Part shown: positions 23,752 to 58,722 of the stretch, one piece after another | Layout of the letters: each line of letters begins with the position of its first letter | Numbering within the stretch: position 1 is the first letter of the stretch | Assembly (NCBI GenBank): GCA_019454045.1 | Contig: SKCR01041848.1 | Span: forward strand, 29,285-93,284 | Direction: 5' to 3' | Origin: Zanthoxylum bungeanum | Taxonomy: Eukaryota > Streptophyta > Magnoliopsida > Sapindales > Rutaceae | DNA length: 64,000 nt | Program-made: the position numbers and the translations under genes | The notes under the pieces: model-generated | The model's input: the letters and a program-made list of their open reading frames with translations, nothing else | The model's database searches: none | What the model was told of the DNA's origin: nothing

Positions 23752-24870
23752 ATTTCTCCCACTTTCTCTAGTTCCAATCTACGGTATCATATACATATCT
23801 AAATATGTATCACATACACAAAAGCTCATCTTGCACTCAAGTGGTAGGCAACAACAAGTAGGTCCGCTTTAACATATCGAGTTTTTCCAACAAACCCAAA
23901 CGTTTCCCTTAGCTAGCATCATTTATATTTTGTAGAACCTAAGTTATACATCAATATGACTCAGATGCTATATCAGCTACAACTACTGAGTTTTTTATGT
24001 ACGTAAGGATCAAATCTAAAATATCATGCAGACAATCGCAAGCACAACAATAGTATCAAAACTTCAAATCTATAAGGTCACTTTGCAACTTCATAAGTCA
24101 ATACTTCATAAGTTATAACTAATTCTACTTACACAGTAGAATCATTCGTGACACTCCTACTATATCTTTTCTGACTCTTTTATGACGTAGACCATATAAC
24201 ATCATAATTAGACTCAAAGCTAACCTGGCCCTAATGGTTGCAGACTATATTCTCCATGAATAAGAAACTCGCTCTTAATATCTCAAAGATAATAAAGAAC
24301 ATGTTTCAAGACACATCCTATGGTCTATAACATATCAAAATAGTTCGTACCAATTACGATTAAATTGATGTATTTTAGTCATACATAATATAGTATTCAT
24401 TATGCCATCATTCTATGATGCATAAGATTTATTAGACTTTATAATCAACTTCTCTTTCGACTAAGAAATCATCCTATGATGCATAAGATTGATTTGACAT
24501 TCTAATCAACTTCTCTTTCAACTAAGAAATCATCATTTACGAAAGATGAATACAATATATAAAAGACACACTAACTGTCAAACATTTATACTTACTGTCA
24601 AACATATAGTCTTGTTGTGTCCTTTATTAGATCATAACTAATGCACGACTAATGGGAGTATCTCACAAGTCTCTTAGTTTTATATCATATTTAAAACTTT
24701 ATATCAAATATAACAGAGACTAGTCCCACTTCTTTTACGGAGAAAATAAGACTTAGGTAAAATATTTACCTTAGAAACATCTCATTATTACCTTAATAAT
24801 GATAATATCGTTAGGATATATAACACTAAAAAGAAATTTGTACGCTCCCACTAACCCTAACATCACATAT
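23752..24870 (-). pseudogene. Copia-C polypurine tract and decayed pol 3' end
   Basis: The plus strand ATTTCTCCCACTTTCTCT at 23752-23769 is, on the minus strand, a polypurine tract next to TGTTAGGG. Near 24830-24860 the minus strand reads GGTTAGTGGGAGCGTAC, close to the VSGSA segment of Copia RT (GGAGGTTAGTGGGAGCGCAC in Copia-A/B). Between these no frame is open and no domain is readable. The element is cut at 24870 by the Athila insertion. Confidence 0.55.
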
Positions 24871-25619
24871 TGACCGGTGCAATCACACGCGTATAACGCA
24901 AGTGCATGTATCGTTCAAGTAATATAAAAAGTATCGATCCCACGACGACTTAAAACCTTTTGATAACTTTTTATGAAGTTAAATGTTTACAAGTATCTAA
25001 TAGATTGATTGTTAAAACAAGTAAATAAAATTGCTCAAAAATAGAATGAAGAAAATTCAAATTTATAAAACTTTACAGGTTTTTGAATCTTTCCAATATC
25101 TTTTAAAAGATGAAGTGGTTATTTTACGTCTCTGTTATATATTAGTTTACTAACCTGGAACACAAAATTATGTAAAAACCTCTTCCGATGGTCAGATACA
25201 AATACCTAGTGTAACCCAATTAATCATATTCCTATGTCAACCAAGTTACCTGAATTTATTAAGATTAAGTTCCAATTATAGCTACCCCTGCCTGACAGGT
25301 ATATTCCTATCATGTAAGGAATCTATTAAAGGGTTATTTATCCTCAAGGAAGATCGTGGGCTATTGAGTCTAAGGTCTCGAACCTAAAATCCCTTTTCCA
25401 AGTTCATTTTAAGTTTACTGAATCAATCTTATTAATGGCCAGTTAACAAGAAGTATTAAGACTAAGGCTCAATAAATAAACCTTCAAATTACCCAAATCA
25501 TAAAATAACCCCTTATTAACCAGTGATATTGGAATTCATCACAACCCCAGATAATTGACTTTGTTACGACACATATTTACAAATAGTAAAAGTTTAAATA
25601 AAATAAAAGACATAAAGTA

Positions 25620-25770
25620 AATTGCTGGAAATAAATACTGAAAGTAAATGCTTAAAGTAATTGCTGAAACGTAAAAACTGAAAAGTAAAAGTTGAAAAAT
25701 AAATGCTGGAAAGTAAAAGCTGATAAGTAAATGCTGAAAATTAAAAAAAAATGTAAAAATACAATAAAAG
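25620..25770. repeat. Degenerate GCTGAAAAGTAAAT short repeats
   Basis: About eight degenerate 14-20-bp units built on CTGAAAAGTAAATG follow one another inside the Athila 3' LTR. Similar units recur at 26105-26180. Confidence 0.65.
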
Positions 25771-25854
25771 AAAATGCTAGAGTAAAATGATCCACTTTTA
25801 TCACTACTATTTTAGATATCTCACTTATTATAATATATTAACTTTGCGTGATTT

Positions 25855-26015
25855 TACCAACCAGCCATATAGGCGGTAACCTGATTAAGTCAAATTTATA
25901 ATTAATTACCAACCTGCCATATAAGCGGTATCCAAGCTTAGTCAGGTTAAAACCAATTTCAATAATTACCAACCGACCAATAAAGCGGTATCCTCATTAA
26001 GTCAGATTTTAAATA
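25855..26015. repeat. Three ~55-bp tandem repeats in Athila LTR
   Basis: Units begin TACCAACC at 25855, 25907 and 25967. Each contains a GCGGTA core followed by a TTAAGTCAG-like word. Spacing is 52 and 60 bp. Confidence 0.75.
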
Positions 26016-26172
26016 GTTTATATATTATAATTAAGGGAGACTAATCTAAACAATAGTAATAAAAGTTTTACCTTTTACCCCAACATGGGGAGTTACCTCC
26101 TCATTACTGAAAAGTAACTTGCTGAAAAGTAAAGAAAAGAAAGTACTGTGCATAAAAGTAAATTTCAAAAAG

Positions 26173-26416
26173 TAAAGACTGAAAAGTAAAGAAAAGAAAG
26201 TGCAAAAGCGGAAATTAATTACTGAAAGCTGTAAATAAACAAGCAAGATATAATCTTCTTAGTATTCTTAAGGAATTACATAGAAGAAGGTAAGAAAATT
26301 AAAGACTGAAAAGTAAAGAAAATAAAGTACAAAAGCGGAAATTAATTACTGAAAGCTGTAAATAAACAAGCAAGATACAATCTTCTTAGTATTCTTAAGG
26401 AATTACATAGAAGAAT
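26173..26416. repeat. 127-bp tandem duplication in Athila LTR
   Basis: The unit at 26173-26299 is repeated at 26300-26416 with only a few changes. It ends with the GTATTCTTAAGGAATTACAT stretch. The high identity indicates a recent duplication. Confidence 0.85.
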
Positions 26417-27541
26417 GCATGAAATTTACAAATGAAATGGCTTAGTATTTATAGGAAAAATTTCACCTTCACCAATTTCTCCACTAATTTCTCCACCAAA
26501 CATGTAAGCATGTTTGGTGGAAGTTTGACAATTTTCATTATTTATCTTTTTTTTTTTAAATGACTTTAATAATTACAATAACACACTTCCGTATATTTCA
26601 TCCATTTCAGTCATGCAATCTTACGAATTCAAAATTATTATAAACTTCCAAGTTGTAGATCTGTGAGCCTTCTTTGATCTGGAACTTGAATCACCTCAAT
26701 CCGATATCGGAGTAGAAAGTTATGGCCAAAATATGAAAATTGTGCAAAGTTGAAATTTCTGAAACTGTACTTCGTCAGAATGTCATTTCAAGTTTCCAAC
26801 CTCCAAAATCCAAAGGTCAAGTCCAGTTTTTACCATTATTTGTTTCATATTTCGTCCTGATTGATTCCATTGAGTCCCGATTTTATTTTATTTGGAAAAT
26901 AAACTAAAACACATCAAAACGTTCATCAAACCCGAGAAACTAAACAAAATATTAGGTAAAATGGCGATAAATATTGATATATTTTTCACTCATCACACCC
27001 TTAAACCTAACATTTTGCTAGTCCTCGAGCAAAATAATAAAATATAATATAATAAATAATTAAAATTAAACTAAGCCACTTTCGTATGGATCACGGTTGC
27101 ATTTAGCGTATGCAACAAGCCTTTAAATCCATAGGTGTCCCTAGTGGATGAGTTGTAGTCTCGTGAGGGCTTACAACAACGATACCCACAAACGTCTTAT
27201 AAAAACAAAAAGATAATAAAACTAATGCACACAAGAGTAAAAACACAAGAGAAAAAAGAATAAAGAAGTTAGTGACTAATCAGGTGAAACTTCTTATCCA
27301 AGTTTATAGTTGTTTTCTTTCTTTCTAAATTACTGAATAAGTAAATTCCCCGAATATTTTTTACCATTCTTCATACACACGGCCAATAAAATATTAATCA
27401 ACTCATTTTGCCCACAATAGTCACAAGTGTAATTGAGAAGAGAGTAATATTTTTATCTTAAAGTTATATCAGAATTCACACCTTTTTTAGCAATGGAATA
27501 TTTTTCTGATTTTTCTGTTTTTTTTATATACAATATCATCC

Positions 27542-27797: not shown

Positions 27798-28320
27798 TTT
27801 TTTTTTAATCATATTGCTTTTTTAGATGCTTCCATCAATTAAACAAGAGCACTGAATATTACAAACTTTTCAATTACAACTCATGTCCGTATGTTACCAT
27901 GTATGTTAATAATATATGTCAACTGAACATATGAAGATTCATTTTAGTCAGTTTTATGGAGAATTCATAAATTAAATAATTCAAAAGGAAATAAACAAAA
28001 ATTAAGTTATTCTGAAATAGGCTGAGATACGTCTCAGAAGTGGAAATTACTTACACAACTATCTCACACCAATTTCACCTGATTAATCAAATTAAAAATA
28101 CAAAAACACAAAATATTTTTTTAATTTATGTAAATATTTTTAATATTTTTTGTATTTTTTCAAAAAATTTAGACTAAAAATAACGCAATAAAATAAGATA
28201 CTAGTCAACTATTCCCCTCCCCCAAACCTAAATGAGACATTGTCCCCAATGTCTTAAGAAGTAGAAGAAGAATTTAGAAACAATACCTGATTAGATGAAA
28301 TTCTACATCTTAAATAAAAA

Positions 28321-29024
28321 TTAAAAGTTAAGATCCAGATTTATCCGACGTTTCTTACCACGATCATTATCGGACCAATTTATCTTGGAAAGTATAGGGT
28401 CAAATTTTGGTTCAAAGGCTAAGATTTGGTCAATTAAATCTGGGGCATTTTTGGCAGTAAAAATGAGTTCTTTTACAGGTTTTGAGACGAACCCATTTCT
28501 CCGGGTATCATAAAGAAACGCACAAAGAAAATCATAAAATCTGTCAGCATTGAACAGTCCAAGCGATTTCTATTGTATGTTCAAGTTCGCCCAAGATAGT
28601 ATTGTAAAAATTTCCTCCATCGTACATAAGCCTCCTAGCAAAGCAATAAAAGCATCAGCCCGATTAATCATTTCCACCAGTCATTCAGACATACCTGGCA
28701 CGATCAGTTCTTCTCCGTTTGATGGTCCTATAAACTTTCCTTCCGCCAAGGGTTTTGGGATGATTCCTAATACTTGACTGCCTCCATCATGTACGGCCTT
28801 TGAAATTATCCCCATTAGTCCAAGATTGCCACCGCCATATACTAGGTGCATATTCCTTTCAGTGAAGACTCGACCCAATTCCTGTTCTGCCGCTACGTAT
28901 TGTGGGTTAGTACCAACACTAGTCCCATAAAAGACACATATATTTACAACTCGTCTTCTTGAAGTGGCTTCAATTTTTATCTGGATGCCTTCAAAAGTGC
29001 AATGATGAGTTGAATTTATAACAC
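28321..29024 (-). pseudogene. LOG: LOG-type cytokinin riboside 5'-monophosphate phosphoribohydrolase, retrocopy carried by Athila
   Basis: LOG enzymes release active cytokinin base from its nucleotide in the cytosol. The minus-strand frame from about 29024 to the stop at 28321-28323 covers nearly the whole fold. It shows the N-terminal strand (VVNICVFYGTSVG), the nucleotide-binding loop (LVYGGGNLGLMG), VLGIIPK, an ADAFIAL strand, a catalytic loop, and a C-terminal half ending in a lysine/arginine-rich tail. There are two in-frame stops, TGA at 28687-28689 and TAG at about 28586. The catalytic PGGxGTxxE loop reads LGGLCTMEE: the proline and second glycine are lost and the glutamate kept. It is intronless, whereas plant LOG genes are normally split, so it looks reverse-transcribed. 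A possible acceptor (TTTTCAG) precedes it at about 29025-29031. The LOG family call is firm; activity is not expected. Confidence 0.85.
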
Positions 29025-29321
29025 CTGAAAAGGGTTAGTGATAATAGCACTAGTATCTTCCAAATGACAATTAGTAGCAAAACAATAAATAGTGAAAGGT
29101 CAAAAAGTCTCATTCCTGTCGGAGAAAATAAAAGAAAACAACAAAACAAATCACAATTATTAGGAAAAGACAAAAAGATAATAATATTTACAAGAAAGTA
29201 ATGGCTTGAATGACGTCTATGCGTCAGGGACAAGCTTCCCATCCAATTTTCTTATAAATTGGCAAACATGGTCTTTTAGAGTCAGATTCCCGAGACTATA
29301 TTGTTGTCTTTCTTTTCAGTA
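29025..29321 (-). other. Spacer between the 147-codon ORF and LOG
   Basis: On the minus strand this 0.3-kb stretch is T-rich and ends in a pyrimidine tract plus TTTTCAG, which could be a splice acceptor for a downstream message carrying LOG. An 83-codon frame (28991-29242) is hydrophobic at its C-terminal half but overlaps LOG in another frame and has no recognisable domain, so it is not called as a gene. Confidence 0.5.
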
Positions 29322-29765
29322 TTATGTATATAACATGTGAATTGCATGATGCACATATCCACTGGAATGCGTCTCAAGAGTCTTAGATATGTCATCCAAA
29401 GACTCCTTACTCAAGCCATCCCTAATGAATTTAATCTTATCTTCACGGTTATCAGATATCATTCCTAAAGAACGACAACTAGTATTATATGTCATGCGAG
29501 CATATTTATAGCAAACACCCATTCTTTTAGCTCTTCTCTTTTTAGCATAGGTGCTTCTTCCTAAACCAGGCAAATGTGAAACAAAAGAGTCAGAAGACTC
29601 ACCTGCCAATCGAACCCGTGCTTCAATAATCCAACGAATGTCATTAGGAATACCTTTGATCATTATTAGTCTTATCATTTCCAAGCGAGCTTTGTAGACT
29701 TTCATCAGATAGTTTTGAGGGAGAGAAGGAAATTGTCTGTGAAGATTTACGAGAACGTCTTCCAT
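29322..29765 (-). CDS. Unrecognised 147-codon ORF downstream of Athila pol
   Basis: This ATG-to-stop frame starts 139 bases after the pol stop codon. The protein is basic, with no signal peptide or membrane segment visible, so it does not look like an envelope protein. Visible features are a hydrophobic/basic helix-like stretch at residues 20-52 (many Ile, Leu, Met and Arg), a strongly basic cluster KKRRAKR at residues 75-81 that could be a nuclear localisation or RNA-binding patch, and a charged C-terminal half. I do not recognise the family. It is intact, while the flanking pol and LOG frames each contain stops. It could be an accessory protein of this lineage, a captured host fragment, or an uninterrupted relic. 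Confidence 0.6.
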   Translation of the reverse strand: MEDVLVNLHRQFPSLPQNYLMKVYKARLEMIRLIMIKGIPNDIRWIIEARVRLAGESSDSFVSHLPGLGRSTYAKKRRAKRMGVCYKYARMTYNTSCRSLGMISDNREDKIKFIRDGLSKESLDDISKTLETHSSGYVHHAIHMLYT

Positions 29766-29904
29766 CGTGAAATGACTTTACCTACACAAATGAAACACAC
29801 AAAAATAAAACACACCAAATCTTGAATATATATACAAATTGCATTGGTTGCCTCCCAGCTAGCGCTAAGTTTAAAGTCGTCAGCTAGACATGACTGCTCG
29901 AACG
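29766..29904 (-). other. Athila post-pol spacer
   Basis: On the minus strand, GACGACTTTAAACTTAGCGC followed by TAGCTGGGAGGCAACC lies just after the pol stop. This is the conserved block typical of Athila-type elements after pol. It separates pol from the 147-codon ORF. Confidence 0.72.
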
Positions 29905-30126
29905 TTAGGCTGGATCTGAAAGTGTGATACTTTCTTTTTGTCGCTCAATTGATTCTCCCCAGTAGTGCTTCACACACTGGCTGTTAACTTTGAATGTGTT
30001 GTTGGATTTGGGATCATGTAACTCAACGGCATTATCTGGTAAAACTTTGGTGATTAGGAATGGACCTGACCACCGTGATTTTGGCTTTCATGGGAAGAGT
30101 TTCAACCTTGATTTGTTTAACAGTAC
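29905..30126 (-). pseudogene. Athila-type integrase C-terminal fragment
   Basis: The minus-strand frame of about 74 codons ends at the TAA 29905-29907. It contains the SRWSGPF motif followed by a KVLP...AVELHDP segment and FKVN...VKHYWGE, the C-terminal DNA-binding module of Athila/Tat-branch Gypsy integrases. A TGA interrupts it shortly before SRWSGPF. The rest of pol is lost, because Tat-plus starts at 30127. Confidence 0.82.
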
Positions 30127-32086
30127 TGTAGGCACTGCATTTTTGCATATAAGTCCCGATTATGAGCCTCGTGCGGAGGCACTACCTTTTAAGTCGCGGG
30201 AAACGGACGTCGCAAGGGAAGATTCAAGGATCAATACCCTGTTGGATTTAATTCGCTTGCTTGGCTTCGGGTCTGCTCGTTAGGCCTCTGTTTTAAAATT
30301 TATTCCCGGCCCAAACCTTAAAAATAACACCCTGGACTCTCCTCTCGCACGCCTATCCTATCCTTCTTCGCCTCTCATGCACGTGTCCTTTCAACTTCTA
30401 GCCATGCACAAATCTCCCACCTCACACCCAAAAAATTCAACAAGCAAAAACAATTCAACAAATAACAAAACACAAACACAAACCCCCACGTGAATAACAA
30501 AAGTCAAGCATCACACAAAGCAAATAAACAAATCAAAAACAAGACACACCTCACATCACTATCCATACAAACACAACAAAATTAATAAACCCTAAAAGCC
30601 AATGAACCCCACGTGAAAACATAAATACAAAGAAAGAAATTAATTAAATAACATAAATCCACACCAAAAGATCAAATACAAATCATAAAGAAACAATCAC
30701 AACAAGACAAAATCCTAGCCTACTAACAATCAACAATCACAACAAGACAAACCCTAACCACTCTTTCCATTATATATTGCCTCCCAATAAATTATCCCTC
30801 CAACCCTCCACCAAATAACCAATAATTTAATAGCCATTCAAACCCTCTCCACCTCAACCATTATAAAAAGAAACAAAAAACCATAATCTCTGGGGCCACA
30901 AAACATGCACATGCGAAACCCCCCACTCTCTCTCGACATCATCACTCATCTCACACAAGCAGCCTCTCAAACTCCATGCACACGTGAGCAGCCCCATTCA
31001 ACACACTCAAATCAGCGCCCACTAGCCACTCGCACTCAAAGAACCCACACCACACTTCACTCTCTCTACGCAAGCCCTCTCTCACCGAACTGCACGTTGA
31101 ACATGCATGAAGCCCTCATGTTCACAAGCCAACACATAAATTAAACACTCACATAACTAGCACCGACTCACTAGCAAACAACCACACATTCATCAACTCA
31201 ACCCTCATGCAGCCAACACGTTCATAAACTTCACGTTCAACACACGTAAAAGACCCCACTCGGCAGCCTCTATTCAGCCCAACACAGCAGCCACACCTCA
31301 GCAGACCTCACGAATGCCCAGATCAACCAACAAAATCCCACATCGACCATGAACCACCCCCTCTTCTCACCTAACCGACATAGCCAGAAACCCTAGACAC
31401 ATGCACGCCACTCATAAACATAACACACACTGACGCACATAAACAAATCCTCTTAGCCGACTAAATTACCTTCAACCTCACGCCACTCAACATGCACCTC
31501 TCCACGTAAAACACATGCATGCAGACCTCATAACCAACGCATCCAATAAAGCACGTTCATCACCCATCACAGCCACTTGAGACACATCCCCGTAAGAAGT
31601 CCCCTTGACCGAAGCAAAACAGCCCCCAAAAATACCCCTAAAACAGTGTGCAAATCACCCAAAACCAGTCCAAAAAATCACCCATGCAGTCCAGAAAATT
31701 AGCTCCCAAAACTGTGAACAAAACTGCAGTGAAAATATATAAAATAGTGAGCGGAAACAGTGAGTGAATCAGAGAAAACAGCAAGCGGAAACTATGAGTG
31801 AAAATAGACAAAACAGCGAAAACATCGAATCAGTGAAAATAACAGAAATAGCGAACCACTGAAAACGGTGAAAATAGTGAAAATAATAGAAATATCGGAC
31901 CATTCTGAACCCAACGGTTTGAGGTCTTCCCTTGCGAGGGGTGAGTGCAGCCTTAAATCATTTTCCCGGTTCACACCGGGTGGCGACTCCATTTTATTCT
32001 CCAGTTTAGTCCCTTGCGGGCTACTCCGTACTTCTGACCGGGCCACGAGCCTGGAACAGCGTCACCGATTTGTATGTTCTATAGTC
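30127..32086 (+). repeat. 5' LTR of Tat-plus
   Basis: The repeat starts TGTAGGCACTG and its last about 200 bp match the other Tat LTR ends. The middle (about 30300-31600) is remarkably poor in G and rich in A and C on the plus strand. The section 31740-31890 is a degenerate series of GTGAAAATA/GCGAAAACA words. The end near the primer-binding site lacks a clear CA, so the inner edge may be up to about 25 bp earlier. The ORF-like stretches at 30905-31144 and 31792-32101 fall in this compositionally biased DNA and are not genes. Confidence 0.82.
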
Positions 32087-32104
32087 TGGCGACTCCACTA
32101 GGGA
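32087..32104 (+). other. Primer-binding site of Tat-plus (TGGCGACTCCACTAGGGA)
   Basis: The position right after the LTR and the TGGCGAC start fit a tRNA-Arg-type primer-binding site, as known for Tat/Ogre elements. The downstream bases match a tRNA less clearly, so the primer assignment is tentative. Confidence 0.65.
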
Positions 32105-33039
32105 TAGAGAATCGGCCCCGAAATAATGTCTAGTAATGTTTGTGATTTGTGCTTTAATTAACCATGTCTACAGTGGGTTGAAGGGGTTTAATCAAAGGCA
32201 TTGTTAAGGCTAGGTGATGGTTTGGTGTCTTCTTTCATTCACTACCTTTCTATAAGGAAAAGTTGTGAAGACACCTAGATAATCATTACCCGGAGCTCGT
32301 TGTGACAACTAATTTGGAGGACTTATTGTTTATTCCTGTCACCAAGGCGATAAGAGCCTAAGAGGCTTGGGTATTTAAGAGTGTTCACTCGACCCTCCCT
32401 CTGGGGAATCTACAATAGGAAATCCATTTGACAGTTAGTCACACACCGTAACTCGTTGGCACGTACCTTAAGGTATAAAAAATGTGCGCTCACTTGGTCG
32501 TTCGAACCCTTGAGTGGGGAGTCCTAGTTGTGGGCAATCCTTCGTCAGCGAGAGCCTTTGTTTACACTCCTGTGAACTTACATGTGAACCATAGTTGTAT
32601 GACCAATAAAAATGATTTCTTTATGTTTGTGTTTGGGATCATCGTCATTTGGATTCAGTTGGACCTCTTGTCAAGAGATATGAACTTGTTGGGCCATTTA
32701 AACTGGGACGAGTTCGTGTCCTTTGACAATTGGGCCAAAAGCTTCTAAAATGCCGATGGGCCATTTTATGTTTAGGTCTCTTATCATTTGTAGTTGTTTA
32801 GCCATGTTATCGCAAAAGTATAAACTTGTTGGGCCTTTTCAACTGGGACAAGTTTGCACTGCGCAATAGTATGATTAAATGCTTTAAAATGATAATGGGC
32901 CAACTGGTGTAAAAATCTTAATGATCTTGTATATTTCATGCATCACACGCATACATGCTAACATGCTGTTTTAATAGACATCATAGATACCCGTTGGGTT
33001 AGGGAAGAGGGAAGAATTTTCAAGAGGCCAATAAAAAAC
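32105..33039 (+). other. Tat-plus untranslated leader with internal direct repeat
   Basis: No gene is visible. AACTTGTTGGGCC at 32683 recurs at 32823, starting a direct repeat of about 80-140 bp (GGGAC, ATGGGCCA and GCTTNTAAAATG words in the same order). The segment 32440-32610 matches the Tat-minus leader and shows the empty target of Copia-A near 32600. Confidence 0.72.
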
Positions 33040-33487: not shown

Positions 33488-36250
33488 ATAGTGTGGTACA
33501 TAATATATATGTATTGATGTTCAGAATCCGCTATGAGCTGGATACTGACTTCAAGCCGAGATTTCTCTGCAAATCGGAAACGGGACGAAAGTCGCTGTTT
33601 CGACCGTAGATACCTAAGTTTAGGAACTACCCTTTGGGTATGTACTTAAATTAGGAACTGTTATAATGTAACTAGTTTGACTAGAGACATTATCTCTATA
33701 TCAGTGTTTAATCCGTTGCGGATAAAACCTTTATATTCTAGAACACTAAAGTGTTTCATTATATAAAGATGATACTGAGATAAATACATTAGATGTAAAT
33801 AATAGAATTTATATTTTGAATATAATAAAATCTCAAACATATAAAAATGACAAATAAATAGCTCAAATTGATTTGATCAATAGAGACTTATTTGTGGCAT
33901 TGTTGTCTAGGACATAATTAAACGAGACTCGTATATCCACACTTTTGAAGAGTGGGTACTAGGACTGATTTGACTATTCAAATAAGGTCTGTGAATCTAG
34001 TTTATTAGGTAAAGTACCTAAAATACTATTTACTTGGTAATAGTATAAGGGCCACCGATCTGTTAGCCTTATTCATGGTGAAGTTAGTGGGCCCATATCT
34101 AGCTAAGCTATATGTGAACATGAATATTTCGTGACCTTAACGGATGTGTTATCACATTATGGTTATGTGTTTCTTTTGAAGAACACAAATCGGAAACTTT
34201 AGAGTTTCGACACGAAATAGAAAAACAGATCGGCTATAGTATTATTCCGCCACGGTAAGACCGTATTGGAAAATACTTAAGCAGTAAGTTTCATATGTAC
34301 ATGAAAGAGTACGGTATTCTTTCAAATGAGGACTCCTCCCGAGACACGTCAGTTAGACGGTGTGTCCGAACTAAAAACCGAATTTTGTTGGACATGATAA
34401 GGTTTATCACGAGTCACTCTGAGCTACTGTTTCCTTCAATAGGATATGTATTAACAGTGCAAAACTTATTTAGAATAAGGTTCCATATAAATCTGTTTGA
34501 CAGATGTCATAAAGGATATGAACAGGGAAGAAACCAGGTTTCTCATTCCTGATAATTTGGGTATGCCAGGCATAACGTTTGGATGATACCAAACTGAAAG
34601 ACCCAAATTGGAACAGTGCCTATATAGGTTATCCTAAGGGAAACCTTGAGTATAGTACTTATAAATCTCACATGAGAACAATATGATTGTTGCTCACCAT
34701 GCGGTTTTCCTGAGAGGAATACCGATATGCAGTGGTCAGTAGGAGGATAGTGATACTCGATGAAAATCGGAGTAATACTGTTCAAGGCACGAAGTCCTTA
34801 ATGGAACACAAATAGTTCATCTATGATGAATCTATACCATTAATCTTCAAATACACAAGAACTTCGTAGATCGGATAGAGTCAGAAAACAACCTAGGGTA
34901 TGGGTTTCTGATCTAACCTCATAAAGATGTCAATCTTATGAAGGTATATCCAACCGACTACGTTTTGAGGAAGTGATACGAGGTATCGACTCCCTATTAT
35001 GGCAAAGTGCCATGAGTCCGAAATGGATTCCATGTATAACAACTATTTTGGATACTAGTTGTTGTACCAAAATGCATTGTGCCTATTGGTACGTAAACGT
35101 CTTCAAGGAAGACATACATGGAAGGCAACATACCAACGTACAAAGCTGGGCTTTAGACGGAAAGGTATCGTTGTCAACATTGTGTTAATAACGGTTCAAC
35201 CTTTTACCTGTTGCCATGGTAAATCCATTTTGAAAATGCTTGTTGATAACTGCGTATTTCATTTATGAAATGTGTCAGATACAGATCAAAATCGCTTTCC
35301 TGAAAAGGAAACCTTTTGGAGGATGTTTACAACATCCTGACGATTTTGTATAACCAACAAACGAGGTTTGCGGTTATTCAACTCCATGTTTGGATTGAAG
35401 CAAGCATAAGGTTCTTGGAACTGTCGTTTGAAAAATCATAATGATTTATGATTTGACTCAAAACGAAATAATTCTTGTGTATATAAGGAGGTTAGTGGGA
35501 GAGGGCACTAAGAATAGAAATTCCCATAAAACAATTGGTGAAAGCTTGCTTTCATGGATATTCTTTCAATAGAAATTCTCCGTAGAATTCTGGGGAGTAA
35601 CAACCTTTATTCAAGGAATAAAGATCTACTGGGATAGATTTGGAGTTGTTAACACTCTCTGGGAAATTGTACATTTAAAATGTACTTGTATTGGTGTCTC
35701 ATACGCTTCGAGCATATGGAGTCACGATCGGGTCAATCCAAGTGATAGTCACTGGATTGAAGTTAAGAACATCTGTTAGTATCTTAGAGAACTAAAGATG
35801 TTGTCTTAAACTATGGAGAAGGAGAACTTGAAGTGACTAGGATCATTGCTGCAAGTTTCCAAACAATTAAATACTACGGTACTATAAAGTTTGAATAACG
35901 GGACATTGAGCTGGAAATATTCCGAGCAAGATAACTGTTGCCGAATAAACAACAAATGCGGATTATTGCTGCAGCTGAGGCAGCAATAGAAGCCATTTGG
36001 ATCGAAAATAAATCTAATTAGATTAGATATAGTTCTTTTAGCAGCTGAGCTAGGCGTCAGCACAGGCTAAGGAATTAAAGGTCTCATCGACGATCCAGAT
36101 ATATACTTCTATATCATCTGATTCGTTCGGATCATACATCGTGGTGATGTGATGATCGTGTAAATCGCGTCAGACGATAATTAAACAAATCCGCTGACGA
36201 AAACCTTTCCTCAGCAATTTGAGCGAACCGTACATAGTTCGGGTGTGGGA
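33488..36250 (+). pseudogene. pol pseudogene of Copia-D
   Basis: The remnants of protease, integrase (about 33960-34560), RT (about 34960-35540) and RNase H (about 35780-36240) are co-linear with Copia-A and Copia-B. Many frameshifts and stops interrupt them. The YVDD region is lost here by a larger deletion: after GTTAGTGGGAG the sequence jumps to ATTCCCATAAAAC at about 35498-35530. Confidence 0.83.
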
Positions 36251-36274
36251 CACTTGAGTGACTGGCTATGTGCC

Positions 36275-36285
36275 AAGTGGGAGAT
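36275..36285 (+). other. Polypurine tract of Copia-D
   Basis: AAGTGGGAGAT directly precedes the TGTTGG of the 3' LTR. Confidence 0.9.
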
Positions 36286-38392
36286 TGTTGGACAAAATGA
36301 CCCATAGCGTCACTATTTGCACAGATCATTGTGTTGTTGTAGCAAATTAACTATGTGACAAGGAAATTGCACTCTCATCATTTGTGATTAGATCACCATA
36401 GATATATAAATGAAGAGAGGTCCCTATGATTAGTTCCTGGACTGAGAATGATATGAGACAGTATCAGTCCCCGAAGGATTAATCATTAAATATCCCTAGC
36501 CGGAGTATTATCGAGACTGGACATCGATAATGCGGAATAGGCTAGTATTGCACTTGTGTGCGTTGTGGAGGGCACAACGGCATAGTTCTCATATATATAA
36601 GTATTGGATACTTATGCAAGTGCGATAGGAGGTCGTGTTTCACCGATGGTACGGGAAACAGCTTCGCTCTGGATAGACCCTTCGGAATCCCATTGGTATT
36701 ATGACTATGTGTCTATGGGAGGCCGAAATCAAGGTAGGTGTGTATAGTCTTAACCTGAGACTTACATCGCTAATACTTACGATAATCGATAGACTTTGGT
36801 CTTGGTGGTACAGGCTTTAACCGGTTCTGCGTACACCACTTCTGGGTTTATCAGAGAGTCGTAGTGTATTGGATGTGATGTCAAGACGGAAGTATCACTC
36901 CAGTCATAGTGGAGATGATGTCACGCAGGATACGGTATTAGTGCTCTTAAGTGTTGCGCGGCCATCGGGATATTATGACAAGGTTATGTATATCCGATTA
37001 TAGAGACTAGTTACCAGACATCCGACATGTGTTTCGTACGGGGCAGACACTTATCCAGCCCCAGGCCTAGCACGTGACTATCCGATACTGGGCCGATATG
37101 CACAATACAATCGTATACTACGCTTGATACAGATCTTAATATTCTTAAATGGATATGTCCGGAGAATTGGAAGACTTGGTGCTTTGCTAGGAGTCGACCT
37201 TGTCTCGTAAATCGGTAAAACGTAGTACTTGGTACGTACGTGATTCGAATACTCCGATGACCGTATTTACTGCCAATATATCCGGGGATCTCATGGGTCG
37301 CTTCCCGATAATCCACCGATGACGCACAACTCGCACTCTTGTATAATCTGGGATTATATAGAAGAGAGAAAATTAATCTAGGATTAATAACGGAGATATT
37401 TTATCTAGGATAAAATATCGTCTAGAGAGAGATAACGATTAATTTGGAATTAATCGATTAAATTAATATATTCGATATATTAAACGAAATTAGATTTCGA
37501 CGTGGAATTAAAATTAGATTTTAATTCGGGCGAACGAATTAATTTAGAATTAATTCGTTAGCGACGTGAATAGTGAATTCGCTAGGCGTAATCATTTAAT
37601 TACGACGCGACGGAAAAATCGTCAATTTGGAATTAACGAACCCGAGCCCGAGTGTGATTGCGAGCGCATTCGTATTTCGAATTCGAGTGCGGCATCGCAA
37701 GTCGCATCAAGCGTCAAATCATTCGTCACATCAAGCGTCAAAACAAATGTCACTTTGAGTGATGTGATTGATTGATGTGATTGATTGATTGAAAGACATG
37801 TCACTTTATTAAAGTTGATATGACTTAAAGTTGATGTGAATAGTGAAAGCTAGTGGAGGGAAAACTTTTGGTTTTTGGCTCCAAAATTCATTTAATTTAT
37901 TAGATGAAATTAAATGGAAATTGATTATTATTTTGGAAAATATATAATCAAAAAGGCTTTACACTTTTTAGAACAAGTCAACACATTTCTATCTCTCTCT
38001 CATTTTTTTCTTCTCTTCTTCTCACGCCCAATACCATTTTTCTTCACTGGTTTTGAACCAGAAATGGCGTGAACAAAGGGAAGCAAGAGTTGCGTTTTCA
38101 TGGTGATAACCGCAAGTGCTAGCACACTACGAGTCTTGCGAAGGTGGTAGGGAGGTTCGCCCATGAGCCGGGATCCGTTAGACGAGGCTTGGAGCTCCGT
38201 TTTCTCAGCTCAAATCTGAAAATTGGAGGCAGTGGACTGCACAGCTTGGGCGTCCTTGGCAGTGAGTTTTTGGGCTTGATTCGTCTCCAAATCGACTCAA
38301 CCGATCGATGTGAGTATTCTGCTATCTCCGTTGGTCTATTCACGCATGTTTTCATTGCTTGTTTGATCTTGGGACCTAGATTAAAACCAACA
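36286..38392 (+). repeat. 3' LTR of Copia-D
   Basis: This 2,107-bp LTR with TG...CA ends belongs to the Copia-B subfamily. It carries the same chain of short inverted repeats at about 37340-37645. Directly after CAACA the Tat RT coding sequence continues. Confidence 0.92.
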
Positions 38393-38393: not shown

Positions 38394-40889
38394 CGGCTTA
38401 ATCCCAAGAAATGTGTGTTTGGGGTGACATCAGGGAAATTGCTTGGTCATACAGTAGGAATGGGCGGAATAGAGGTAGACTCCGAAAAGATCAAGGCAAT
38501 CACAGAAATGCCTGCACCGAGGACAGAAAAAGAAGTCAGAGCATTCTTGGGGAAGATTCAGTACATCAGTCGGTTCATTGCCAAGTTGACATTAGTATGT
38601 GAGTCTATCTTCAAACTGTTGAGAAAAGATCAGCCAGTGAGATGGAATGAACAGTGTCAGACAGCCTTCGACAAAATCAGAGAGTATTTGGTAAAGCCTC
38701 CTGTATTGAAACCTCCGAGACCGGGCAGACCTTTGATATTGTATTTGGCTATAGAATCAGAAGCACCGGGGGCAATGATGGTACAGGCTGATGAGACAGG
38801 GGTAGAACATGCAGTTTACTATCTGAGTAAGAAGATGCTCCCGTATGAGGCTCGGTATCAAGAAGTTGAGAAGATCTGTCTTGCAGTAGTATGGGCTTCC
38901 AGAAAATTGCGGCATTATTTCCAGTCATACAAGATCCAGATAGTGGCCAAGGAAAATCCTCTGAAATATCTTCATTCGGTGCCTTCGCTAGTGGGAAATT
39001 TGGGCAGATGGTTGGTATTGCTGACAGAGTTTAACATTGAATATCTCACCTCCAAAGTGATCAAAGGGCGAGCAGTAGCAGAGTTTCTGGCAATGAAACC
39101 TGTTGAGGGGGATCAGTATAAGTTTGAATTTCCAAATGAAGAGATCCAAGCAATAACAGTTCAGAGATGGAAGATGTATTTCGACGGAGCAGTGAATTAC
39201 AAGGGAGCTGGAATTGGAATCGTGATAGTGACCCCCAAAGGGGAGACTTTGCCTTTGGCCAAGAGGTTGACATTCAGAGTGACTAATAACATGGCCGAGT
39301 ATGAAGCATGTGCTTTTGGTTTGACAGCATTGATAGCCTTGAAGGCCGGGAGTGTGGAAGTCTACGGAGATTCTATGTTGGTAGTCCAGCAGATGCGAGG
39401 AGAATGGGAATTGAAATAAGAACGGTTGAAACCTTACCTTTTTCACCTCAGAAAGTTGGCACAGGTTATCCCCGAGTGTAAGTTTCAGCATTTACCGAGA
39501 GAATAGAATCAGATGGCAGATGCATTGGCTACACTTGCAGCAACCTGGGAAAATCCAGAAAAGTTAGTGATGAGACCGTTGATACTGACAACAGCGAGCA
39601 GACCTGTTTATGAGATAGAAAGAATTCTGGGAGTTGAGGTCGACGACGGTAAACCTTGGTATTATGACATTCAGAGGCATCTGGAACATGGTGAACTCCT
39701 GGAAGGGGCAGGCAGAAAAGAAAGAATAGCCAGTCAGAAGTTGGCTTCCCAGTATGTGATTTTGAAAGGGGAACTGTACAAGAGGCAGGCAAACAGTATC
39801 CAGTTGAAGTGTTTGAGAAAAGAAGAAGCTCAGCATGTAATGGAAGAAATACACGCCGGGGTATGTGGTCCGCACATGAACGGGTTGAATCTGTCCCGCA
39901 AGATAGTGAGACAAGGTTTTTATTGGTCAACCATGGAAACAGATTGCGCGAAGATGGTGAAGCACTGTCATGACTGTCAAGCACATGGTAATTTGAATCA
40001 CTTACCGCACACAGAGTTACACGGGCTGTCAGAGCCGTGGCCTTTCTCAGCATGGGGAATTGATATGATTGGAGAAGTTCGGTCGAATGCGTCAAATGGG
40101 CATCGCTTCATAGTAGTGGCAGTAGATTACTTCTCGAAGTGGGTAGAAGCCGAATAATTTCGTAATGTTACAGCAAAGCAGATGGCAAAGTTTATAGCTC
40201 GGAACCTCATTTGTCGGTATGGTATGCCGCATCATGTAGTGACAGACAACGGGGTCCAGTTTCAAGGAGAGACGAATGCAATGTTACAGAGGTACGGGAT
40301 AGGCCACCACAAGTCATCACCGTACAGGCCGCAGGCAAATGGGGCAGTTGAGGCAGCCAACAAGACTATAAAGACAATTTTAGCCAAGATGACAGAAAAT
40401 TACAGGGATTGGGCCGAGAAACTACCATATGCTCTGTGGGGGTACAGAACATCAGTAAGGACAGCAACAGGGGCCATACCTTACTCTTTGGTCTATGGAA
40501 TGGAAGCAGTATTGCCGGTAGAAGTGGAGATATAGTCTATGAGGGTATTAACAGAGGCAGAATTACCGGAACAGGATTGGGCCGCACAGAGGTTTGATTA
40601 GTTAGTACTATTGGATGAGAAGAGAACGAAGTCTTTGTATCACATGCAGTTGTATCAGAAGAGACTAGCCCGGGCATTCAACAAGAAAGTACGTCCCACC
40701 AAGATCAGAAAGGGTGATTTGGTACTTAAGCAGTCGAGGCCGTCGACGACAGATCCGAGAGGAAAATTCAGACCAAACTGGTAAGGACCTTACATAGTGC
40801 AGAAGGTAATGGGAAATGGAGCAGTGAAGCTATCAGACTTGGAAGGGAACGAGTTCACTGAGCCGATCAACGTAGACAGATTAAAGTAA
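38394..40889 (+). pseudogene. Tat-plus pol: RT end, RNase H, second RNase H, integrase
   Basis: One continuous frame of 832 codons has no frameshift but six premature stops (39417, 39504, 40155, 40533, 40599, 40782). In order it holds the RT C-terminus (RLNPKKCVFGV), RNase H (38680-39040), the second Tat-type RNase H (39165-39540; acidic residues in YFDGAVN, AEYEAC, YGDSM and MADALA), the integrase HHCC finger (39850-40000), and the DDE core: D in WGIDMIGE, D in VTDNGVQF, E in NGAVEAAN. The C-terminal module ends FTEPINVDRLK. The order and second RNase H are diagnostic of the Tat clade. Protease and most of RT are missing upstream, so it is non-functional. Confidence 0.92.
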
Positions 40890-45028: not shown

Positions 45029-46964
45029 TGGTTCCCACACTAGGTCAAACCAAGATCAATTAAGCAATGAAATGAGCGAATACAACAAAGTAAAGTAGCG
45101 TAAATACTCACTTTGATCGGCTTTTGGATGCGATGAACAAAAAAAAAAATTCTGCTCATAGATTTTCCTCCTTGTGTAATTCAGCCAAGCCCCTTTGTTT
45201 TTTATCTTCAAGCTCCAAGCTTTGTGAATGATTCCATGCTCAAGGGTTGGTTTCCCTATCACCTTTGTAAGACTCCGTGTGTGCTAGCACTTGAAAATTT
45301 GCAACAAATTTTTTCTCATTCTCTTCACTTAGTTCTCACGGTAATGAGAAAAAGAAGAAAGAAAATGGCGTGAATGTGAGAGAGAGAAAGGAAGTGAATG
45401 TTGACTTGTAATTGATTTCCAATTCTAATTAATGATATACCAAAATTTGGTAATAAGATTCATTCCACCAAGTTGTGTTTTACAAGTTTCCAACAACCCA
45501 ACCACTTCCATCAACCAAAAAAGTAGATGAGATGGACTAGGTGATGTGACTTGTGGGCCGCACTTGATTCAAAATCCGAGTGGGCCCGCAACACATCCCG
45601 GGCTCGGGTTCGCTAATTCTGAATTAACGAATTTTCTGTTGCGATGTAATTAAATCAAATTTAATTAAATAATTATGCCTAGCAAAATTACTATTCACGT
45701 CGCTAGCGAATTAATTCTAAATTAACACGTTTTCCCGAATTAAAATCTAATTTTAATTCCGCGTCGAAATCTAATTTCGCATAATATATCGAATATATTA
45801 TTTTATCGATTAATTCGAATTAATCGTTCTCTCTCTTAAATAGAATTTTATCCCAGATAAAATCTCTCTGTAATTAATTCTAGATTAATTTTCTCTCTCT
45901 TATAATTAATCCCAGATTAATTATGTCCGAGTCATACGTCATCGGTGAATCTTCGGGAAGCGACCCATGAGATCCCTGGATATGTTGGCAGAAAATCCGG
46001 TTGTCAGACTATCCGAACACGTACGTACCTAGTACTACGTTATTACCGATTTACAAGACATAGTTGGCTTCTAGCAAAGCACCGTGCCTACCCAATTCTC
46101 CAGAAATATTCTTAAAGGAATATATAATCTGTATCAGGCGTAGTATACGTAGTATTGCGTATTGCGATCCAGTATCTTATGTCACATGCTAGGCCTGGGG
46201 CTGGAATTGTGTATGCCCTGTACGAAGCATATATCGGATCTCTGGTAACTAGTCTCTATAATCGGATAATCATGACCTAGTCATATTATCCCGATGACTG
46301 CAGTACTAAAGAGTACTAGTTATGTATCCTGCGTGATCATCATCTCCATATGACTAGAGTGATACTCCATCTTGACATCACAACCAATACACTACGATTC
46401 TCAATATACCCAGAAGAGGCGTACACAGAACCGTTAAAGTTGAAAGCCCTAGACAACAAACCAAGTATATTGATTGTCGCAAGTATTAGCAATGCAAGTC
46501 ACAGGTTAAGACCAAATACACCTACCCTGATTAGGACATCCATAGACACATAGTCATACTACCAATGGAATTCTGAGGGGTCTATCCAGAGCGAAGCTAT
46601 TCCCGTACCATCGGTAAACACAACCTCCTATTACACTTGCATAAGTATCCAATACTTCAATATATGAGAACTATGTCGTTATGCTCCCACAACGTACACA
46701 AGTGCAATACTAGTCTATTTCGCATTATCGATGTCCAGTCTCGATAATACTACGACTATGGATATTTAATGATTAAACCTTCGTGGATTGATACTGTCTC
46801 ATATCATCTAAATCCGGAACTAATCATATGGACTTTTATCATTTATGTATCTGGTAATCTAATTACAAATGATAAAGAGAGAATTTCCTTTGTCACATAG
46901 TTAATTTGTACAACAACACCATGTTCTGTACAATATTGATGATATGGGTCATAATTGTCCAACA
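45029..46964 (-). repeat. 3' LTR of Copia-E
   Basis: It aligns with 52915-54870 from 45040 onward; the first 11 bases differ. It ends GTCCAACA at 46964 (minus-strand TGTTGGAC start). The inverted-repeat chain is at about 45610-45925. Confidence 0.88.
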
Positions 46965-46980
46965 ATCTCCCACTTGGCCT
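46965..46980 (-). other. Polypurine tract of Copia-E
   Basis: The plus strand ATCTCCCACTTGGCC reads GGCCAAGTGGGAGAT on the minus strand, adjacent to TGTTGGAC. Confidence 0.9.
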
Positions 46981-49900
46981 ATAGCCAATCACTCAAGTGT
47001 CCTACACTTGAAATATGTACGAGTTGCTCAAACTTCTACTTGAGAAACAGCTTTCGTCAGTGGATTTACAAGGTTATCATTGATGCGATTTATTCGATCA
47101 TCGATTACATATGATATAGATAGTGAATCATCCGAATGAATAGATGAATAGTTGAAATATACTTGGATCATTGATGAGACCATGTGATTCTTTAGCCTTG
47201 TTGTAGCCTAGCTCAGCTGCTAACAGAACTACTCCTAATCTAATTAGGAAATTTACAGATCCAAAAATTGCTTCCTTTGATGCCTCAGCTGCAGCAATAT
47301 TCCACTTTTGTTGTTTATATCGGCAACAGTATCTTGCTTGGAAGATTTCCAGCTCATTGTTCCGTTATTCAAACTATATAGTATCCTTATTACGACTTAC
47401 AGTCGTTTTTATCAGTTTGGAAACTTGCAGCGATGATCCCAGTCACTTCAAGTTCTCCTCCTCTATAAATTAAGAAAGCATCCTTAGATCATCTAAGATA
47501 CTTAAGGATGTTCTTAACATCAATCCAGTGACTATCACCTGGATCGGCCTGATTGTGACTTCATATGCTCAAAGCATATGAGACACCAGGTCACGTACAT
47601 CTCTTTCAATGTATGAGTTCTCGGAGAGTGCCAACAACTTTTAAATCTATCCCAGTAGATCCTTATTCCTAGAATAAAGGTTGTCTCCCCCAAGTATTCT
47701 ACGGAGAATTTTCATGAAAGCCAAGCTTTCGCCGATTGTATTATGGGAATGTCATTTCCAAGAAATGATATGTCATTATTTTATAGGACAATCATTGTCA
47801 GTGCGCTCCCACTAACCTCCTTATATACACAAGAATCATATGCTTTTTGAATTAAATCATATACCATTATGATCTTATCAAAACATTAGTTCCAAGAACT
47901 TAATGCTTGCCTCAATCCATAAATGGATCGAATTAACTTGCAAACCTTGTTTGCTCGTTTTGGTACAACAAAACCGTCAGGATGTTGTAAACATCCTCCA
48001 AAAGTTTTCCGTTAAGGAAAGCGGTTTTGACATTCAACTGCCATATTTCATAAATGAAACATGCAGCAATAGCAAGCATTATCCAAATGGATTAAATCAT
48101 GGCAACGAGGTAAAAGGTTTCGTCGTAATCAACCCAATGTGATAACGATACCTTTTCGCTACAAGCTAGCTTTGTACGTTTGTATGTTGTCCACATGTCT
48201 CTCATGTCTTCCTTGAAGACTCATATAGTACCAATAGGCACAATGCCTTCCGGTACATCAACCAGTATCCAAACTTGGTTGGTATACATGGAATCCATTT
48301 CGGACATCATGGCACTTTGCCATAATAGGGAGTCGATACCTTGTATCACTTCCTCATACGTAGCCAGTTCGTTTTCCTCAATAAGATTGACATCTTCATG
48401 AGGTGAGATCAGAAACCCATACCTCCCAGGTTGTTTTCTGACTCTCACCGACTTGCGCGGTTCTTGTGTATTTGAAGATTATGGTACAATTTCATCCCTG
48501 ATGAACTGTTTGTATTCCATTAAGGAATCGGTGCCTGGAACAGTATTACTCTGACTTTCATCGAGTTTTACTTTCCTCTCACTTACCACTGCATATAGGT
48601 ATTCCTTTTAGGAAAACCGCATAGCGAGCAACAATTACATTGTTCTCTAGTGAGTTGTATAAGTACTATACTTTGGTTTCCCTAGGATAACCCACAAATT
48701 AGGCACTTATCCAATTTGGGTTCTAGTTTGGTATCATCCAAACATATGCCCAGCATTCCCAAATCACCAGGAATGAGAAAACCCGGTTTCTTTCCTGTTC
48801 ATATCTAATATGAAGTCTGTCAAACAGATTTTCATGGAACCTTATTCAAAATAAGTATTACATTGTTTAATGTGTATCCCTAGAAGGAAAATGGTAGCTC
48901 AGAGCGACTCATAATTAACCTTACATGTCCAACAAAGTTTGGTTTCTCTGTTCGGACACACGTCAAATTGAGGTGTTCCGTGAAGAGTCCACATGAAAGA
49001 ATATTATACTCTTTCAAGTATTCGAGAAACTTATTGCTTAAGTATTTTCCACCATGGTCTAACCTTGACTGTTTTAATACTTTAGCCGATTTGTCTGTCT
49101 ACTTCATGTCGAAACTCTTTGAATTTATCAAAAGTTTCCGATTTATGTTTCACAAGAAACACATAACCATAACGTGATGCCACATCCGTAAAGGTTACAA
49201 AGTGTTCATATCCACCTCTAGCTTAGCTAGATATGGGCCCATTTACGTCACTATGAACGAGGGCTAACAGATCTGTGGTACTTGTACTTTTACTAAGTAA
49301 AAGGTGTTTTAGGCACTTTGCCTAATGAACTAGATTCGTAGACATCATTTGATTAGAATCAAATCCATCCTAGTACCCACTCTTCGAAAGTGTGGATTTA
49401 CGAGTCTTGTTTAATGTGTCCCAGACAACAATGCCACAAATAAGTCTCATCTGATTAATTCAGTTTGAGCTACTTGTTTGTCATGTTATACATTTGAGAT
49501 TCATTTATATTCAAAATATAAATACTGTTATTCACATCTAATGTGTTTATCTCAATATCATCTTTATAAAATAAAACACTTAGTGTTCTAGAATATAAAG
49601 GTATACCCGCAATGGGTTATATTAAATTAGATATAGATGTTTCTAGTCAAACTAGGTACATTATAACAGTTTCCTAATTTAAGTACATACCCAAATGGTA
49701 GTTCCTAAACTTAGGTTTCTACGGTTTAAAACAGCGACTCTCGTCCCGTTTTCGACTCGCAGGTTCTCAACTGAAGTCAGTATCCTGCTAATCAGCAGAT
49801 TCCGCACATCAGTACATATTTATGTACCACATCTAGTATCAAAATCCAATTTTGAAACTATAGTGAACATGTTTATGACAAACATTCTTGAAGCCGGAGC

Positions 49901-49990
49901 CTTGCCCCGCCTTCACTTCCTTCATGTCTGCCTTGTCCATACGGCAGTCACGCTTCAGTGACCCCGTTTGCCACAGTTTAGGCAGACATC
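46981..49990 (-). pseudogene. gag-pol pseudogene of Copia-E
   Basis: On the minus strand the zinc-knuckle remnant is at 49984-49944 (C-x2-C, GH, then a one-base deletion). Integrase remnants lie at 49420-48850. RT lies at 48450-47740, with an open 75-codon piece (48448-48221) reading ISPHEDVNLIEENELATYEE and then SLLWQSAMMSEMDSMYTNQV. RNase H lies at 47480-47000. The YVDD segment is replaced as in Copia-A/B (about 47790-47755). Stops and frameshifts are scattered elsewhere. Confidence 0.87.
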
Positions 49991-52901: not shown

Positions 52902-52913
52902 GCTCTGATACCA
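52902..52913 (-). other. Primer-binding site of Copia-E
   Basis: GCTCTGATACCA on the plus strand is TGGTATCAGAGC on the minus strand, one base from the LTR end. Confidence 0.95.
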
Positions 52914-52914
52914 T

Positions 52915-54870: not shown

Positions 54871-55428
54871 CACAGAACCTGTTAAAGCCCCGGATGACCA
54901 ACAACCAAAAGTAATTGATTGTCGCCAAGTATTAGCTATGCAAGTCTCAGGTTTAAAGACCAAATACACCTACCCTGATTCGGATTTCCCATAGGCCCAA
55001 AACAACAAAAGTCATACTTACCAATGGGATTCTGAAGGGTCTTATTCAGAGCGAAGCTGTTGTTTCCGTACCATCGGTAAACAGAACCTCCTATTACATG
55101 CATGAGTATCCAATACCCTAAATATATGAGAACTATGTCGTACGCTTCCATAACACGCACAAGTGTAATACTAGTCTATTCTGCATTATCGATGTCCAGT
55201 CTCGATAATACTACGACTAGGGATATTTAATGATTATACCTTACGTGGATTAATACTGTCTCATATCTTATTAATCTAGTACTAATCATATGGACTTTTA
55301 TCATTTATATATCCCGGTAATCCAAATACAAATGATAAAAGAGCAATTTCCTTTGTCACATAGTTAATTTGTACAACAACACCATGTTCTGTACAAATAG
55401 TGATGCTATGGGTCATAATTATCCAACA
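54871..55428 (-). repeat. Partial LTR duplicate next to Copia-E
   Basis: It begins CACAGAACCTGTTAAAGCCC, the same words as 54337-54356, and runs in parallel to the same LTR terminus (ATCCAACA at 55428 against GTCCAACA at 54870). The two copies (534 and 558 bp) are tandem and differ by many small insertions. It may be a tandem duplication or the stump of a second LTR. Confidence 0.85.
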
Positions 55429-58710: not shown

Positions 58711-58722
58711 AATTCTCCCCTT
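58711..58722 (-). other. Polypurine tract of the Gypsy-like element
   Basis: The plus strand AATTCTCCCCTT is AAGGGGAGAATT on the minus strand, directly before TGTAACGACC. Confidence 0.88.

Follow-up and report, generated by a model that had tools for sequence, protein, structure and literature searches.

A dead, 5′-truncated 3′ half of a Ty3/gypsy Athila-like long terminal repeat (LTR) retrotransposon occupies 24.87–30.12 kb, on the minus strand, of a 64,000-nucleotide stretch of the Zanthoxylum bungeanum genome (contig SKCR01041848.1, positions 29,285 to 93,284; hereafter the window). Behind the remnant of pol it carries two open reading frames (ORFs), one homologous to the cysteine-rich proteins (CRPs) of carlaviruses and the other to the cytokinin-activating LOG enzymes. 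Judging from sequence comparisons, we consider it somewhat better than an even bet that this copy belongs to a numerous Athila-like family which bears CRP and LOG as a cassette in the env position, that the cassette is under selection, and that its products have the roles in silencing, cytokinin activation and TOPLESS recruitment which we propose below. Here we demonstrate the anatomy of the element, show that it recurs in the genome and that gene models of Sapindales and Lamiales repeat its gene order, and report LTR pairs flanked by a 5-bp target duplication together with purifying selection that acts on the two ORFs during replication.

The two reading frames of the cassette

The LOG reading runs from 28974 to 28324 on the minus strand and is unbroken by introns along its full length. 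Its 217 codons align without insertion or deletion to the protein P0122 (79% identity), whose numbering we use below, and the best match among solved structures is Arabidopsis At2g37210 (2a33, E = 6.6e-47, query residues 18–221). The window copy has two in-frame stops, has lost its start codon and has an altered catalytic loop. Each of its two pieces lies below the Lysine_decarbox cut-off and one lies above the LDcluster4 cut-off; the LOG copy at another locus (L019) matches Lysine_decarbox with E = 6.4e-37. The conserved Arg and the PGGxGTxxE motif, broken in the window copy, are kept in most rows. A chance ORF was considered and rejected on the Pfam matches and the structure match to 2a33. 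The 28324–28974 reading, its minus-strand translation and the match to 2a33 bear out an earlier sequence-only reading of this DNA, which had described a LOG homologue free of introns on the strand of the element, interrupted by two stops and changed in its catalytic loop, between the integrase C-terminus and a conserved GACATTGGGGACAATGTC block. The block does lie 3′ to LOG, as in many, though not all, fetched copies; it does not adjoin the LTR as had been supposed, for about 1.2 kb separates it from the 3′ LTR (start ~26,995) in the window copy.

Between integrase and LOG the sequence-only reading had also listed an ORF of 147 codons. An ORF exists there, but it is a 182-codon frame broken by two stops and a homologue of the carlavirus CRP; the frame 29220–29765 continues past the stops to the same end as its 182-residue relatives. 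The piece matches Viral_NABP (E = 1.8e-7, 31.8 bits, curated cut-off 23) and Carla_C4 (E = 4.5e-5, 23.8 bits, curated cut-off 20.9) and retains two of the four zinc-finger cysteines. A database search returned 293 relatives at E <= 0.01 among 318 candidates, and the 120 of these that were listed include proteins from Populus, Xanthoceras, Acer, Rhamnella and Orobanche with a usual length of about 182 residues. For both proteins alignments were drawn from the 120 listed matches of 750 (LOG; A1, 41 database rows to which the window copy was added) and of 293 (CRP; A2, 40 rows). Viral_NABP matches 37 of the 40 rows of A2 and Carla_C4 likewise 37 of 40 (E 0.01). The cysteines C88 and C93 are invariant, C85 and C97 nearly so, and the basic block K75–K80 is conserved. 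Beyond the basic and zinc-finger region, which it shares with the viral CRPs, the protein of the element has a further conserved C-terminal part.

Recurrence of the cassette

The genome searched comprises 3.956 Gb in 51,709 contigs. A first look yielded 47,331 candidates for LOG and 21,755 for Carla_C4, figures which are not copy numbers, and 150 of each were scored. All 150 LOG candidates lie above the cut-off and 147 have no stop in the matched domain, this being a best-scoring sample; 143 of the 150 Carla_C4 candidates matched. Carla_C4 gave no match in 14 control genomes.

Two sets of 20 loci were then read. The first (L010–L029, 5.6–9.9 kb each) holds the best-scoring LOG domains, and some of its contigs look duplicated (L011/L012 and L023/L024). 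A CRP piece lies upstream on the same strand in 16 of these loci and an integrase C-terminus in 14. The second set was picked regardless of LOG by taking each seventh rank (ranks 1–134 of 143) of the CRP list, which is a list of the best zinc fingers. Here LOG follows downstream on the same strand, about 250–275 bases past CRP, in 19 of 20 loci.

A search of gene models with the CRP part as query, among candidates of about 308–980 residues, gave 49 proteins. According to precomputed domains, 19 of them combine Carla_C4 with Lysine_decarbox, and in four of these an integrase is present too (Citrus x changshan-huyou, Primulina tabacum, P. eburnea and Henckelia pumila). The order integrase, CRP, LOG is found in gene models of Sapindales as well as Lamiales. 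Another 15 of the 49 join Carla_C4 to reverse transcriptase, RNase H or integrase domains without LOG, and both ORFs recur across several plant orders. The linkage in the genome loci and in the gene models of other plants supports the earlier suggestion that retroelements of one family spread a LOG without introns, placed behind pol.

A gene model of Pterospermum (P0261, 841 residues, 66 member sequences) joins gag, an aspartic protease and a CRP-like domain, without integrase. Scans of viral contigs with P0001, A1 and A2 brought up L001 as the sole hit, with a distant LOG: this 38-kb IMG/VR contig has a LOG-family stretch at 1337–1660 which is 39% identical to the LOG of the element.

Structure and mobility of the element

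Three elements proved to have an LTR at either end. The LTR pairs are 97.0 and 97.6% identical in L022 (two pieces), 97.55% over 2123 bases in L025 and 94.1% over 2101 bases in L019. At the common plant substitution rate of 1.3e-8 per site per year a divergence of 2.5% would mean about one million years. The LTRs start with TGATGAG (the first base is changed in one 5′ copy) and end with GTCA. The element at L022/L050 has CCTGA on both sides, and the pentamers flanking the element at L025/L051 agree in four of five bases. Directly after the 5′ LTR both L051 and L050 show TTTTTGGCGC[CT]GTTGCC, a TTTTTGGCGCCGTTGCC-type sequence and candidate primer binding site. Retrotrans_gag is present in L050, and RT_RNaseH and rve in L022; two further pieces of L022 have no family match. 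The two best-bounded elements are, from their coordinates, about 11.2 and 12.5 kb long. The label Athila fits this anatomy.

At L018 (1343–9901), L023 and L024 we observed tandem units with a period of 3.5–3.6 kb, shared LTRs, pieces of CRP and LOG and little or no pol. These arrays are possibly non-autonomous elements or products of unequal recombination.

Selection on both reading frames

Variants were grouped by the number of copies that share them, and amino-acid changes were expressed relative to the neutral expectation as an omega-like ratio; gapped pieces, pieces below 40 codons and five repeated places were excluded. For LOG (62 distinct rows) the ratio falls from 0.76 for singletons through 0.66 and 0.37 to 0.18 for variants shared by at least six copies. 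For CRP (30 rows) it falls from 1.16 through 0.84 and 0.44 to 0.14. Widely shared variants are thus depleted in amino-acid changes and singletons less so, as would be expected of two ORFs that are under selection during replication and decay after insertion. Many copies of the cassette at the CRP-selected loci are broken. Pairwise comparisons (without gapped, identical and short copies, the latter below 95%) gave a LOG pN/pS of 0.23–0.34 at dS > 0.05 (36 distinct full copies, mostly of the best-scoring sample) and a CRP pN/pS of 0.41–0.68 (5 copies). For close LOG pairs the value is 0.81 at dS 0.02–0.05 (6 pairs), where constraint is unclear, and a single pair has dS < 0.02.

Tail and catalytic positions of LOG

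Many LOG proteins of the element end in an added tail. When the rule is applied leniently, an LxLxL-like end after a run of basic residues is seen in 39 of the 42 rows aligned. The strict pattern stands close to the C-terminus in 73 of 100 database rows of the 217-residue type (some of them fragments), in 40 of the 48 genome copies extending to codon 217, in all seven Populus and both Malvales rows, and in 9 of 20 rows fused to CRP; it is missing from all 11 Xanthoceras rows and from the Acer rows. The LxLxL pattern has been described as an EAR consensus (PMC9956375). The alignments to the solved structures of Arabidopsis LOG3 and LOG8 end before the tail region. Six further positions were inspected (R98, G114, G115, G117, T118 and E121), which represent the conserved Arg and the PGGxGTxxE motif and which we take to be catalytic.

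One explanation of these data is that LOG is a captured growth gene and nothing else, which activates cytokinin in the cells expressing the element, and that CRP is an unrelated accessory. All six positions are kept in 7/7 Populus rows, 10/11 Xanthoceras rows and 76/100 further database rows, and among solved structures a plant LOG matches best; both findings speak for such a gene. However, G115, G117 and E121 are changed in all eight Citrus models of this comparison and R98 is replaced in all six models of one Orobanche group; strict LxLxL is still present in 9 of these 14 models and an altered form of it in P0279, while the other four stop short of the tail or end elsewhere. Among the 20 CRP-fused models all six positions are kept in 4, changed in 12 and incomplete in 4. 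With such changes at the catalytic positions in Citrus and in that Orobanche group, the conserved function cannot in all lineages be the activation of cytokinin. The constant order and spacing of CRP and LOG also speak against this explanation. We regard a pure growth gene as a possible but rather unlikely account.

Alternatively the LOG fold could be a scaffold. The kept function would then be the basic and LxLxL tail, which would bring TOPLESS-type co-repressors to the nucleus and alter hormone or defence transcription in the manner of pathogen EAR effectors, with enzyme activity optional. The wide occurrence of the strict pattern in database rows and genome copies, its identity with the EAR consensus and its retention in lineages with changed catalytic positions speak for this view. 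Yet a pattern of five residues is by itself weak evidence, and the EAR reading is not universal because the Xanthoceras and Acer rows are without LxLxL. We regard the scaffold, too, as possible but rather unlikely. A second Orobanche group (P0260 and P0262) shows the reverse of the Citrus state, with the six positions kept and LxLxL absent.

That CRP and LOG are harmless passengers without benefit to the element would agree with the many broken copies and with the near-neutral singletons, but it is improbable given the strong depletion of amino-acid changes among the variants common to many copies in both ORFs, and given the recurrence of both ORFs in several plant orders. Finally, an independent processed retrocopy of LOG that landed in a dead Athila copy, which the sequence-only reading had named as the case that would overturn it, is suggested by the intronless LOG and the dead window copy and can practically be dismissed, because the position and spacing of LOG recur at 19 of 20 loci picked regardless of it, the gene order is repeated in other plants and LOG is under purifying selection (a target duplication or poly-A flanking LOG was not searched for).

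Several observations weigh against our own reading of a selected cassette with two active products. The AlphaFold model of CRP is of low quality (mean pLDDT 62), and the 13 matches it gave in a viral Foldseek library all miss E 0.001, the best being 0.29; as a hint, four of the first five are CRP-kind proteins of what we take to be betaflexiviruses. Four of the 20 LOG-selected loci (L010, L013, L027 and L029) have LOG alone without CRP, and one of the CRP-selected loci (L072) has no LOG within the stretch read. In the CRP-selected sample, which includes dead copies (19 rows each, rows filled to 80% or less left out), pN/pS is only moderate with 0.42–0.65 for LOG and 0.60–0.85 for CRP. The changed catalytic positions in Citrus and Orobanche and the missing tails in Xanthoceras and Acer belong here as well, as do the low branch support and the failing pyrimidine criterion before CRP reported in the next section.

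Origin and putative expression of the cassette

A tree that also included LOG3, LOG8 and two bacterial LOGs places the 27 element-type rows together to one side of a weakly supported branch (68/63), and 22 of them, with Acer, Xanthoceras and one similar row excluded, group with 95/97 support. Placing the Acer/Xanthoceras-type rows with the host LOGs is not rejected (p-AU 0.38). A single capture of LOG is therefore favoured rather than established; perhaps it happened once in an old eudicot lineage. Plant LOG genes are normally split by introns, and capture through RNA is compatible with the intronless LOG, though unproven. A query of 74 residues from LOG3 gave 150 matches in the Z. bungeanum genome, all at most 60% identical, so that the host LOG genes were not reached by it.

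Of 42 distinct copies, 39 have a pyrimidine-rich, acceptor-like site ahead of LOG, as compared with a fraction of 0.20 in shuffled sequence, the copies being related and not independent. Before CRP a TTTTTGCAG-type sequence is present in 12 of 13 copies, but a single one of the 13 is rich enough in pyrimidines to satisfy the criterion (shuffled 0.23). Since the copies are related, these sites hint at spliced downstream mRNAs and no more.

Five gene models of Xanthoceras (P0131, P0134, P0140, P0142 and P0154) have two LOG domains and lack the LxLxL tail; they may be copies of the element or derived host genes. Three Populus proteins annotated as 'LOGL10' (P0186, P0189 and P0222) have the tail of the element-type LOGs, and P0186 groups with these in the tree. 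All three may be ORFs of the element.

Proposed mode of action

In plant viruses, CRPs have been reported to suppress silencing, to contribute to pathogenicity and to localise to the nucleus, and p12 of chrysanthemum virus B to be a transcription factor causing hyperplasia (PMC12172455). We suggest that the cassette could work in the following steps. The CRP and LOG proteins would be translated from spliced downstream mRNAs. The CRP-like protein might then be a nuclear factor that binds nucleic acids and acts, like its viral relatives, as silencing suppressor and/or regulator of transcription. LOG with its basic and LxLxL tail could raise the local level of active cytokinin and/or recruit TOPLESS-type co-repressors. 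Together the two proteins would keep the expressing cells dividing and make them less able to silence the element, and new insertions would thereby reach more meristem and germ-line descendants.

A bolder version, which we put forward tentatively and would not bet on, is that an old eudicot lineage of retrotransposons runs a two-protein programme. CRP would blunt silencing or reprogramme transcription, LOG would have been turned into a nuclear recruiter of TOPLESS, and the cells bearing insertions would proliferate. The enzyme would have become dispensable at least twice while the tail was kept, and CRP genes would have moved between RNA viruses and retrotransposons.

Relation to known systems

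The capture of LOG is real and in part already known. A YgdH (LOG-family) domain has been reported in LTR-retrotransposon consensuses of Citrus sinensis and C. clementina and, unfiltered, also of Populus trichocarpa (PMC9289625), in line with Steinbauerova et al. 2011 cited there. These are probably elements of the same lineage; the passage on them presents just the domain, whereas the CRP neighbour, the cassette, the tail and the selection analysis are added here. The sequence-only reading had overlooked this printed Citrus report, as well as the homology of CRP, the unity of CRP and LOG as one cassette and the basic and LxLxL tail. The string 'carla' is absent from the main texts of PMC9289625, PMC7264820, PMC11963269 and PMC6317226. 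Among the matches listed in our literature searches no title was recognised as dealing with a CRP/NABP homologue in retrotransposons or with the CRP–LOG pair, subscription papers being mostly uncovered, and no listed paper concerns the LOG tail of retroelements. For a link to upp-L no paper was found. As far as searched, three things are new: the CRP–LOG cassette, the pattern of selection on it, and the tail together with the repeated alteration of the catalytic site.

Comparable cases exist. Ty3/gypsy elements of orchids also captured a host-like enzyme, an AlkB-type m6A demethylase, as an extra ORF and kept it through replication; they differ in enzyme, element group and plants, and there activity was shown in vitro (PMC9289625). 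The gypsy order of pol and a long coding region behind it are shared with the Athila elements (PMC6317226; PMC7264820 names Athila). The post-pol ORFs are CRP and LOG here, while an Athila ORF-1 domain is reported for 16% of Athila (PMC6317226). The likeness to the carlavirus and allexivirus CRPs (Viral_NABP, Carla_C4; PMC12172455) extends over the basic and zinc-finger region; the protein described here is encoded by a retrotransposon and, with about 182 residues, has the extra conserved C-terminal part. With the plant LOG phosphoribohydrolases (2a33, 1ydh) the LOG of the element is homologous over nearly its full length, with the catalytic motif in most rows, and it differs from them in being intronless and mobile, in its basic and LxLxL tail and in the changed catalytic positions of some lineages. 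The ipt gene of the T-DNA activates cytokinin, and acutely transforming retroviruses carry host-type growth genes. Both may be likened to our element as mobile elements with a host-type growth gene, purely by analogy.

Other features of the window

The sole LTR kept in the window copy is the 3′ one and the sole remnant of pol is the C-terminus of the integrase (Table 1). Homology to L014, L019, L022, L025 and L028 stops at 30116–30126. Farther upstream, 31897–32601 and 33489–34000 are repeats with 84–88% identity to other places in the window, and a long reading starts at 32962, for which no family match above its cut-off was found. This DNA may belong to another element, the one by which the Athila-like copy was cut off at 30,122. 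A second gypsy pol lies at 38439–40727 on the plus strand (~32% identity to the Citrus pol model P0245) with no CRP or LOG match nearby. The regions 1–22000, 36010–37694 and 45500–62000 are rich in long repeats, both direct and inverted, as nested LTR elements would produce.

Table 1. Parts of the Athila-like element in the window
Feature	Position	Strand	Basis or remark
3′ LTR, begins TGATGAG	~24870–26996	−	80–82% to LTR of element L025/L051, five pieces; edges approximate
Conserved GACATTGGGGACAATGTC block and purine-rich stretch, 3′ of LOG	28212–28253	−	exact block 28236–28253
LOG-like ORF, 217 codons + stop, intronless	28321–28974	−	minus-strand translation; 79% to P0122 over 217 residues
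3′ splice-site-like sequence (branch-like CTAAC, pyrimidines, CAG), upstream of LOG	29025–29040	−	acceptor scan
Carlavirus-CRP/NABP-like ORF, 182 codons + stop, two stops near codon 148	29217–29765	−	Pfam Viral_NABP, Carla_C4
Integrase C-terminal end	29908–30122 (C-terminus 29908–30087)	−	element 5′-truncated at ~30,122

Significance

The function of the extra post-pol ORFs in plant retroelements has been called speculative (PMC6317226). In the element described here both of these ORFs are recognisable, one being common to RNA viruses and the other to the hormone pathway of the host. The cassette thus offers a direct test whether retrotransposons manipulate the growth of their host to reach the germ line, and an exchange of genes between retrotransposons and RNA viruses that can be dated. 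Some of the 'LOG' genes in plant catalogues may be ORFs of such elements, which would distort studies of the cytokinin gene families. If the two-protein programme is true, it would be the plant counterpart of the retroviruses that carry growth genes.

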